From Mycobacterium dioxanotrophicus (GTDB lineage Bacteria > Actinomycetota > Actinomycetes > Mycobacteriales > Mycobacteriaceae), in the NCBI RefSeq assembly GCF_002157835.1, contig NZ_CP020809.1:1178001-1242000 (forward strand): 64,000 bases of DNA, given 5' to 3'. Shown piece after piece: positions 26,743 to 28,827 of this stretch (position 1 is its first letter; each line of letters begins with the position of its first letter). The position numbers and the translations under genes are program-made. Under the pieces are notes generated by a model, which saw nothing but the letters and a program-made list of their open reading frames with translations, was not told the DNA's origin and did no database searches.

Positions 26743-27026
26743 ACACCTGCGAAGACCAGTCCGAACCGCTCGGCGAGAACCCCGACGTCCCGGCCCGCTA
26801 CGACGCCGGCATCGGCACCCTGCTGGAAGCGATCGAACGCGGCTCCGTGATCGGTGTCCTCGGGGCGGCCGACGCGGTGCTTGCCACCAAGCAACTCGCC
26901 GAACGACAAACCCAGGCGCTCAACGCCATCCGGGAACTGCACGAGCGCGAGACCACGCTGTGCATCGAATGCGCCGATAAATGGCCGTGCCCGACCATCA
27001 GGGCTATCAATGAGGCGGGCGCATGA
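26739..27026 (+). CDS. Small phage protein with CxxC motif
   Basis: A 95-residue helical protein ending in a Cys motif (TTLCIECADKWPCPTIRAI). The same ending style (Cys pair followed by WPC) recurs in the 29901 product (CNHCLGPKVWPC), so the two may share a small zinc-binding tail. ATG 26739 overlaps the preceding stop. Confidence 0.6.
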   Translation: MNTCEDQSEPLGENPDVPARYDAGIGTLLEAIERGSVIGVLGAADAVLATKQLAERQTQALNAIRELHERETTLCIECADKWPCPTIRAINEAGA

Positions 27027-27397
27027 TCACCGTCCTCTCAGATGCTGCGTGGGGTGCACGCGAAAACGCGCACCTCCACGGGAAGACCGCTGTCGGCGCC
27101 GCCGCACTGTCGGCGCAAGGCAACATGTACTCGGGCTGCAACGTCGAGCACCGGTTCCGCGCCCACGACGTGCACGCCGAAGTGAACGCGCTCACGTCGA
27201 TGACAGCCGCTGGCGACGGCCCGGCTGTGGCGATCGTGATCGCTGCTGCGCGTGAGCGATTCACCCCGTGCGGTAGCTGCCTCGACTGGATTTTCGAACT
27301 CGGCGGCCCTGACTGCCTGGTCTCGTTCCAAGGTCAACCCGGCGGACCAGTGGAAACGCTGCGCGCCGACGAACTGATGCCGCATTACCCATGCTGA
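27023..27397 (+). CDS. Cytidine deaminase-family protein
   Basis: A 124-residue protein with the deaminase zinc site: GCNVEHRFRAHDVHAEVNAL supplies His51-X-Glu53, and FTPCGSCLDWI supplies Cys83 and Cys86. Size and motif order match cytidine/blasticidin deaminases. It should deaminate a cytosine nucleoside. The ATG overlaps the previous stop and its end overlaps the m5C methyltransferase start, so the two are translationally coupled. A role in phage nucleotide metabolism is inferred. Confidence 0.85.
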   Translation: MITVLSDAAWGARENAHLHGKTAVGAAALSAQGNMYSGCNVEHRFRAHDVHAEVNALTSMTAAGDGPAVAIVIAAARERFTPCGSCLDWIFELGGPDCLVSFQGQPGGPVETLRADELMPHYPC

Positions 27398-28827
27398 GGG
27401 TCGGATCGCTCTTCTCAGGAGCCGGTGGCCTGGACATGGCCGTCGAGCAGTTCTTCGGCGGCCGCACAGTGTGGCACTGCGAGCTCGATGCGGCGGCGTC
27501 GAAGGTGCTCGCTCATCGATGGCCGGGCGTACCTAACCACGGCGACATCACCGCCGTCGACTGGTCGACCGTCGAGGCCATCGACATCCTGTGCGGCGGG
27601 TTCCCATGCCAGGACATCAGTAGCGCTGGCCGTCAGGCCGGGATGGGCGCCGGTACCCGCTCGGGCCTGTGGTCCGAGTTCGCCCGTGCCATCGCAGCGC
27701 TCCGGCCGCGTCTGGTGGTCATCGAGAACGTAAGGAACCTGCTCAGCGCTGACGGTGAGGCGTGGCCGGCTGAAGTGGTCGCCGCCGACGCCGAGTGGGC
27801 GCGCCTTGCTCGCGTCGTCGCCCTCATCCACAGCAAGATCAACCGAGCCATGCGAGAGGACTGGTGGCATGGACAGTACAAGCAGCGCAAGCAATTCGAG
27901 CTGCATCGGATGGCTCGACTCCGAGACCGGGCATTGGCTCGATTCCGAACCCTCAAGCGTCGACTTGTTCAACGAGCCATCGGGACAGTTGTTGCCGACC
28001 TGGCCAACCTCGGGTATGACGCGCAATGGACGACTATTTCCGCTGCCAGCGTCGGCGCACCCCACAAGCGCGAGCGAGTCATCATCCTCGCAGTTGATGC
28101 CGACTCCACGAGGGTGCGCGGAGCGGACATCGCGCGGAGCGGCGACACGGCGGGACAGCATGTCGTCGCCGTCGCTGGAGCAGGCGATCGAGATCGCAGC
28201 CGGGAAGCTGCCGCGGGAATTCGAGACATGGGAGCAGCTGCCGCCGAGCTGGCAGCCGTAGATCTGCTTGCTACCCCGTGCGCTGCGCGGTCGGGCAACA
28301 ATCAGTCGGCGTCGCCGGGTGCAGCGGTTCGCCCGTCACTGGACAGCATCACGGATCTTCTACCGACGCCGAGGCGAAGCGATGGCGATGGCGGGGCTAA
28401 CCCGCTGTCTCGCGCCGAGCGGATGGACGACGTTGAGACCAGGGTCATTCGGCTGCTGCAAACGCCCAGAGCTGCTGACGGCGATGGAAGCAGGAAGGCG
28501 CGTGGCGGGGACCGGGGCAACGAGCCCCTGCTACCGGGCCAGGCCGTGGAGATGGCTCAGCAGTGGGGCAAGTACGCCCCGGCCATCAAACGTTGGGAGG
28601 CGGTGACCCGACCAGCGCCTTCGCCAACTGAGCCGAACACATTCGGAAACCCAAGGCTGGCAGCGCATTTTCCGGAGTGGATGATGGGCTGGCCGGCTGG
28701 CTGGGTCACTGATGTCCCTGGGGTGAGCCGCAACGACGCGCTGCGCATCATCGGCAACGGTGTCTGCCCGCAGCAGGCCATCGCTGCTTTGCGCTGGCTA
28801 CTTCCAGTGTCGGCGGTGGCCGCGTGA
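27391..28827 (+). CDS. DNA (cytosine-5) methyltransferase, Dcm-type, orphan
   Basis: A 478-residue C5 methylase. Motif I GSLFSGAGGLDMA (SAM site), motif IV GGFPCQDIS with catalytic Cys73, motif VI IENVRN, motif VIII region GYDAQWTTISAASVGAPHKR, and motif X RNDALRIIGNGVCPQQA are all in one frame. An unusual basic insert (about 140-200) precedes motif VIII. A variable region with repeated LLxTPR motifs follows, as is common in phage methylases. No partner nuclease is adjacent, so it is probably protective. Codon third positions lose their G/C bias at about 27,900-28,000, exactly where a nested frame begins. Confidence 0.88.
   Translation: MLRVGSLFSGAGGLDMAVEQFFGGRTVWHCELDAAASKVLAHRWPGVPNHGDITAVDWSTVEAIDILCGGFPCQDISSAGRQAGMGAGTRSGLWSEFARAIAALRPRLVVIENVRNLLSADGEAWPAEVVAADAEWARLARVVALIHSKINRAMREDWWHGQYKQRKQFELHRMARLRDRALARFRTLKRRLVQRAIGTVVADLANLGYDAQWTTISAASVGAPHKRERVIILAVDADSTRVRGADIARSGDTAGQHVVAVAGAGDRDRSREAAAGIRDMGAAAAELAAVDLLATPCAARSGNNQSASPGAAVRPSLDSITDLLPTPRRSDGDGGANPLSRAERMDDVETRVIRLLQTPRAADGDGSRKARGGDRGNEPLLPGQAVEMAQQWGKYAPAIKRWEAVTRPAPSPTEPNTFGNPRLAAHFPEWMMGWPAGWVTDVPGVSRNDALRIIGNGVCPQQAIAALRWLLPVSAVAA
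27869..28261 (+). CDS. Nested +1-frame gene inside the methyltransferase
   Basis: A 130-residue frame, MDSTSSASNSSCIGWLDSET onward, lies entirely within the methylase gene. AGAGGA sits 8 nt before its ATG. Third codon positions are mostly G/C here while those of the methylase frame are not, so this frame carries the coding signal. It contains WPTSGMTRNGRLFPLP, an Ser-rich stretch and LMPTPR, then SLEQAIEIAAGKLPREFETW. The WPxSGMxRNG...LPTP pattern resembles a phage methylase-associated family as I remember it. It could be an overlapping gene or part of a programmed-frameshift product. Function is unknown. Confidence 0.6.
   Translation: MDSTSSASNSSCIGWLDSETGHWLDSEPSSVDLFNEPSGQLLPTWPTSGMTRNGRLFPLPASAHPTSASESSSSQLMPTPRGCAERTSRGAATRRDSMSSPSLEQAIEIAAGKLPREFETWEQLPPSWQP

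Follow-up and report, generated by a model that had tools for sequence, protein, structure and literature searches.

A conserved +1-frame gene nested in a prophage C5-cytosine methyltransferase gene of Mycobacterium dioxanotrophicus probably encodes a shortened second subunit

The gene for a C5-cytosine (m5C) DNA methyltransferase in Mycobacterium dioxanotrophicus, here called alpha, contains a second open reading frame in its +1 frame, and the locus raises the question of whether this frame is a gene and, if so, how its product (beta') relates to the methylase around it. Both are part of a prophage in a genome of 8.08 Mb and lie in the window, by which we mean the whole stretch of 64,000 nucleotides that was analysed (NZ_CP020809.1, positions 1,178,001 to 1,242,000). 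The initial annotation, made from the sequence alone, offered two explanations: a true overlapping gene, which comparative evidence now strongly supports, or a programmed frameshift that swaps the recognition region of the methylase, which found no support.

Alpha carries C5-methyltransferase motifs I, IV (PC), VI (ENV), VIII, and X, and in its 0 frame motifs I to VIII are followed by an array of LLPTP-type repeats and then by motifs IX and X (Table 1); we infer the label motif IX for FPEWMMGWPAGW. The 130 codons of beta', beginning with the ATG at 27869-27871, lie entirely within the alpha coding sequence as initially described, and the AGAGGA placed 8 nt before this ATG is present, with GAGG as a short match to a Shine-Dalgarno (SD) sequence. 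The claim that third codon positions of the nested frame are richer in G+C held in direction for the first 33 codons (0.73, versus 0.58 in the methylase frame), at a less extreme size than stated, and for the last 35 codons it held roughly in full (0.91 versus 0.51). Across this region the methylase frame retains motif VIII (GYDAQW...VGAPHKRERV) while the nested frame reads SGMTRNGRLFPLP, again as initially noted, and SGMTRNG..LP is indeed conserved among methylase-linked phage proteins, as it had suggested. A Pfam scan up to E 10 assigned no family to beta'. Residues 31-91 of beta' match positions 88-149 of the phrog_1008 profile, and residues 284-476 of alpha match positions 127-323 (E 8.8e-54), so that one known family covers first the +1 and then the 0 frame. 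A cytidine/deoxycytidylate deaminase-like gene (27023-27397; PF00383, E 1.1e-10) adjoins upstream, its last 7 nt shared with the beginning of the methylase gene. The genome contains another methylase locus (G000:C1:2351503-2352479; L009 and L011 in our numbering of loci) of this two-frame design, with an additional PTP module in its nested frame.

Table 1. Features of the methylase locus, in coordinates of the window.
Feature	Position	Strand	Basis
Alpha, C5-cytosine DNA methyltransferase, 478 aa, 0 frame	27391..28827	+	PF00145 E 1.3e-38; phrog_116/363/1008
Beta', nested +1-frame gene, 130 aa and TAG	27869..28261	+	phrog_1008 E 7.9e-11
AGAGGA, SD-like, 8 nt 5' of ATG 27869, inside methylase codons M-R-E-D	27855..27860	+	sequence; survey of starts and SD sequences
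SGMTRNGRLFPLP in +1 frame, same bases as the 0-frame methylase motif VII region (LGYDAQWTTISAA)	28010..28048	+	same register in 39/57 distant loci scored
Methylase motif VIII GAPHKRER, 0 frame	28054..28077	+	H, R, R invariant in 80/80 distant alphas
TAG stop of beta', at V-D codons directly 5' of the alpha LLPTP array	28259..28261	+	TAG in 29/33 window-type loci, TGA in 4
LLPTP-type repeat array of alpha, 0 frame; recognition domain expected here	28264..28563	+	phrog_1008 match, alpha residues 284-476; pLDDT <50 at residues 240-391
Motif IX-like FPEWMMGWPAGW, 0 frame	28669..28704	+	counterpart of VEWLMGFPxGW on beta of EcoHK31I-like loci
Motif X GNGVCPQQ, 0 frame	28753..28776	+	sequence; invariant columns

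The comparison of synonymous sites among homologous loci that the initial annotation had proposed gave a clear result. At amino acids with at least four codons, 0-frame synonymous differences were roughly halved in the overlap, from 0.404 upstream to 0.208 (p 5e-5, the floor of 20000 column permutations), among 23 loci that match in length between motifs I and VIII, a set from which the window is absent because it carries an insert. The corresponding values among 10 divergent loci were 0.609 and 0.301. Between motifs VI and VIII both frames are held, the +1 frame having an identity of 0.64, versus 0.41 for the same frame upstream of the overlap; its dN/dS is only about 0.8 (0.27/0.33), so the case in this part rests on the conservation of synonymous sites. 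Past motif VIII we aligned 11 loci whose +1 frame ends in SW[QH]P, seven of them non-redundant and including the window. In these seven, identity is 0.73 in the +1 frame and 0.39 in the 0 frame (0.731 and 0.360 without the last five codons, which had been used to pick the loci). Changes per site by 0-frame codon position are 0.513, 0.250, and 0.179, the peak of 0.513 falling on the third position of the +1 frame, and in the +1 frame dN averages 0.254 and dS 1.407 with stop columns skipped (dN/dS about 0.18). Judged from this alignment, the constrained frame past motif VIII is the +1 frame.

A tblastn search with the nested protein returned 47 phage records, 46 from phages of Mycobacterium and one from Gordonia, and in all eight of these loci that were opened the match lies in the +1 frame of an annotated methylase; in phage Babsiella the nested coding sequence is already annotated, as gp55. 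Sequence matching also gave 13 proteins, the closest being a hypothetical protein of Mycolicibacterium canariasense. A set of 85 entries (84 loci and the window) comprised 46 distinct classified loci, 29 duplicates, and 10 entries left unclassified by the script whose motif flags, corrected by reading, gave the layout calls. Homologous +1 frames had been suggested as a place to look for stops; a +1 frame of at least 93 codons spans motif VIII in all 46 classified loci. The most common layout is that of the window (33/46), with IX and X in the 0 frame and beta' nested, and the +1 frame is open in all 33. Eight loci are AquI-like, in that alpha stops and the array, IX, and X are on the +1 frame. 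Three (L014, L015, and L033) are EcoHK31I-like, with X on alpha and IX on the nested +1 frame. L015, L070, L073, and L077 were flagged as doubtful because the pattern for X was too strict, and X was read by eye; for L044 and L045 the script chose another, upstream methylase with IX and X in neither frame, and the main gene of each is window-like. The window layout is a third kind of arrangement: IX and X are kept on the predicted catalytic chain, inside whose gene a shortened beta remains. In relatives with the other layouts the same N-terminal part of beta continues in frame into IX, or into IX and X.

The 10 unclassified entries represent seven distinct loci (L017/L021, L023, L027, L053/L076, L056/L080, L081, and L082), six of which have the +1 frame. 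The seventh, L027, is without the region and has a frame in its place that by eye resembles LAGLIDADG endonucleases. Alpha is interrupted in L017, L056, L081, and L165. In L053 (2841-3815) the split falls inside motif VIII, alpha ending in GAPPQA and HKRERV being read in the beta frame. Two Gordonia phages have endonuclease frames in the +1 frame of the methylase (L008 2000-2455, annotated; L027 1505-2317, the LAGLIDADG-like frame), and motif VIII is missing in L027. In phage Llama (L165 1042-1957) the N-terminal part of beta reads on into alpha motifs VII-X, and the rest of beta is in the third frame.

The end of the nested frame is also largely conserved. Of the 33 window-like loci, 29 close this frame with TAG and four with TGA; in 17 of the 33 the stop stands in the context TAG-ACC-TGC, which reads V-D-L or L-D-L in frame 0, and in 23, the window included, the next element 3' of the stop is an LL[P/A]TP-type module of alpha. 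A QPGLC.HC stretch precedes the array in seven, and three have neither arrangement. Such a stretch, which bears cysteines (QPGLC.HCAAALRRAEAGEP..), separates the nested stop from the LLPTP array in L001, L002, L005, L057, and L059, and also in L004 and L052. The module LLPTPRATDGTKGGPNQRGSSGDLMLPSAV is found in the +1 frame in many loci and in the 0 frame in L013. Among close relatives the array can be in either frame. Between motifs I and VIII phage Ovechkin (L028) shares 99.4% identity with L036; the first is AquI-like and the second window-like. A G run is one base longer in one of the two, and past this run the array belongs to beta in Ovechkin and to alpha in L036. The layouts of L053 and L041 (98.4% identical) also differ, together with one base in a C run within motif VIII, as do those of phage Inventum and L043 (97.8% identical), where the sequence differences are larger. 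The one-base differences may stem from sequencing errors in individual records; taken as they stand, the records indicate that fixed differences in DNA length set the array in one frame or the other among nearly identical phages.

The beta family is large: a search with the EcoHK31I-like beta of L014 found 3188 proteins at E <=1e-3, and none of the 120 matches listed has a name other than hypothetical protein. Four of these 120 (P0096, P0107, P0109, and P0129) carry PF00145, suggesting that some betas read on into methylase sequence, and none of the 19 aligned family members tested has a Pfam family. The best 80 of 589 viral loci matching these 19 members were fetched (76 distinct by DNA). Every one has a -1-frame open reading frame of at least 244 codons (median 312; median of the other frame 41) with a match to PF00145, and in the alignment of the 80 alphas the PC of motif IV, the N of ENV in motif VI, and HxRxR of motif VIII are invariant. 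The presence of a C5-methylase in the -1 frame of all 80 beta loci marks the family as the probable second subunit of split m5C methylases. Beta' belongs with it by its phrog_1008 match and its overlap with a C5-methylase in the -1 frame, and the three EcoHK31I-like betas tested (P0066, P0128, and P0071) match phrog_1008 too. Of the 57 loci scored, 39 have a P.SG pattern that starts exactly 50 nt 5' of motif VIII (another stretch was fitted in six, and the pattern was not found in 12), and alpha encloses beta completely in 49. Free-standing betas were considered when a strict motif search left 23 of the 80 loci without a -1-frame methylase, and were dismissed when the Pfam scan found one in all 80. 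The 20 of these 23 loci that were printed (all but L125, L149, and L153) have motif variants such as GANH, GAHH, NAPH, and DAPH, among others, and such variants explain why a three-motif regular expression found only 50 of the 80. Matches to phrog_1008 occur in seven of 396 genomes of the phylum of the window, and a plasmid search with beta P0066 returned three records only.

Eight control methylase loci were checked for a +1 frame across motif VIII. Klebsiella phage Matisse, a Helicobacter pullorum prophage, and Streptococcus phage Javan179 have none of at least 45 codons; Javan179 has IX-X in a second open reading frame. Clostridioides difficile phage phiCD27 (L169 1313-1774; 34% G+C) has a +1 frame of 154 codons across motif VIII ending SLLDILEDEVHEKYFLS.., possibly another overlapping layout, and this weakens a clean contrast with the controls. 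Beta-like frames are present in Bacteroides phage BU730P1, Llama, and Bipolar, and Ali17 has a C-terminal piece only. The nested +1 frame of BU730P1 (L171 1313-1843) contains SGMMRSG and LPTP.

Structure prediction is in keeping with a methylase core in alpha and says less about beta'. The AlphaFold model of alpha has a mean pLDDT of 61.5, and its catalytic core matches M.HhaI (2uz4, E 1.9e-10) best; residues 240-391, where the recognition domain is expected, fall below pLDDT 50. An unfolded stretch in a model of one chain is no proof that a partner is absent. For beta' the model is weak (mean pLDDT 65.2, pTM 0.28), with residues 101-130 better modeled (block means 90-95). Among solved structures, neither beta' nor the beta family has a convincing relative; the best family match, the Kelch design 7pvp, has an E of 7.2e-9 on a stretch of 21 residues, and no stretch passes alone. 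The YDPxTxSW stretch of the family (alignment A2, positions 43-84) resembles Kelch blades in this match.

An open frame of this kind could in principle be an accident, G+C-rich codon bias and a conserved methylase motif together keeping the +1 frame open and seemingly conserved. Some of its similarity is indeed forced: when scored with a profile of the distant loci L085-L164, synonymous shuffles of the methylase average 12.5 bits and reach up to 36.8, since the residues of motifs VII-VIII partly fix the +1 reading. Beta' scores 38.8 bits, which none of 2000 shuffles reaches, and the 130 codons remain open in 5.8% of them. Across the loci, the +1 frame stays open for 63 codons over motif VIII in 38/46 (18.3 expected), and an SD and start pair within 165 nt occurs in 29/46, versus 13.3 expected from shuffles. 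As the +1 frame is also the better conserved one where the methylase has no motif, an accidental frame is barely credible, and a real overlapping gene at 27869-28261 is strongly supported by the comparison of sequences. Very improbable, too, is a programmed ribosomal frameshift, by which one start would yield a methylase with either recognition region, or beta' would continue into the 0-frame array. Coverage of the +1 N-terminal part and the 0-frame C-terminal part by phrog_1008 as one protein would suit it, as would the single-frame betas of that kind in AquI-like phages. The SD and start pairs speak for separate initiation, however, and in most of the mycobacteriophage group the signal is AGG-GGN, 7 nt, GTG; the SD is written in ENVRGLLSA, with Arg as AGG or AGA and Ser as AGT in nine of 10 divergent loci each. 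The nested frame ends at a largely conserved stop, the codon before this stop varies (CCG, CTG, GCG, CTC, CCT, and others), no shared slip site was seen by eye at the junctions of 16 loci, and in two close pairs the layout changes with a one-base difference in the DNA.

If the nested frame is a gene, it might still be a decaying one, the N-terminal part of a beta left without function once the array, IX, and X had passed to the alpha frame. All motifs are on alpha alone in the window and frames are broken in some lineages, as decay would predict, but the low +1 dN/dS past motif VIII and the open frame in all window-like loci, most with the same TAG, make this quite unlikely. It is also unlikely that the gene has a function apart from methylation, such as that of an anti-restriction or regulatory protein. 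The lack of a Pfam family or a convincing solved-structure match for beta' would allow for such a role; the same N-terminal part runs in frame into IX, or IX and X, in relatives, which ties beta to the methylase.

We therefore consider it likely that the locus encodes a two-subunit m5C methyltransferase in overlapping frames, made up of alpha and an independently translated, shortened beta' that probably binds alpha and helps recognition. Beta' (about 130 aa) would be translated from its own SD and ATG inside alpha, ending at the TAG just 5' of the alpha array, and most likely binds alpha to give part of the target-recognition surface, consisting of the SGMTRNG..LP domain and one PTP module. 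Alpha would supply catalytic motifs I-VIII, a largely unstructured LLPTP array, and IX and X. The ancestor of beta' would have been the beta subunit of a split methylase like M.EcoHK31I or M.AquI, with the array, IX, and X passing to the alpha frame; we infer this direction of change, as we do separate translation, binding to alpha, and the role in recognition. Separate translation of a recognition subunit fits the data best. As alpha alone has all the catalytic motifs, beta' might be dispensable. Active enzymes are reported to form from C5-methylase fragments, with M.AquI and M.EcoHK31I as natural two-chain enzymes (PMC3404938), and such precedents make assembly of beta' with alpha plausible rather than demonstrated. 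According to the same paper, the predicted recognition domain of M.EcoHK31I is on the larger subunit and only motif IX is on the smaller (PMC3404938), which by analogy counts against a recognition role for beta.

A wider reading, which we offer tentatively and regard as possible more than probable, is that phage m5C methylases of a large class generally have a second subunit encoded by overlap and that hypothetical proteins in the thousands belong to these betas. Overprinting of motifs VII-VIII would have given rise to the family, and a single-base change would hang the array on either subunit, so that frameshifts are tolerated and perhaps exploited to bring recognition modules into new pairings, the two frames offering a route to new specificity. 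If these readings hold, conserved motifs for two components of apparently one enzyme are written in a single stretch of DNA, a big family of hypothetical phage proteins gains a probable identity, and automatic annotation hides or misnames a methylase subunit. The EcoHK31I-like, AquI-like, and fused-plus-nested layouts would also form a natural series for testing subunit splitting, fusion, and recognition.

Split m5C methylases are already known as a general kind. In the open-access literature searched we found no paper on a nested beta' that is conserved among actinophages, on the position of its stop ahead of the array, on this third layout, or on a general beta-alpha overlap. The beta gene of M.EcoHK31I was reportedly described by Lee et al. 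in 1995 as nested in an alternate frame of alpha, and a second gene so nested is what the window would share with that type. M.EcoHK31I consists of two polypeptides (PMC3404938), like the system proposed here, and its motif layout matches that of L014, L015, and L033, a likeness of description and not of sequence. In that description IX is only on beta and X on alpha; in the window alpha carries both the IX-like FPEWMMGWPAGW and X, and beta' ends earlier. An out-of-frame HNH insertion in phage methylases is reported for ShiLan (PMC11855218), and there, as in the window, a second coding frame is hidden in a phage methylase gene. By that account the frame in ShiLan is an inserted homing element, whereas beta' overlaps the native motifs VII-VIII. 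A ShiLan-like homing endonuclease in the second frame was considered and rejected, beta' having neither HNH nor LAGLIDADG and no Pfam match up to E 10. The phrog_1008 model, named 'DNA methyltransferase', joins parts that are split over two frames in the window. M.AquI is split after motif VIII with the variable region shared between the subunits (PMC3404938), and this layout, with a +1 overlap, is seen in the phage relatives Rebeuca, Inventum, and Ovechkin. In the M.AquI type alpha ends after VIII, and IX and X are on beta, whereas the alpha of the window is full-length and carries the distal variable region, IX, and X.
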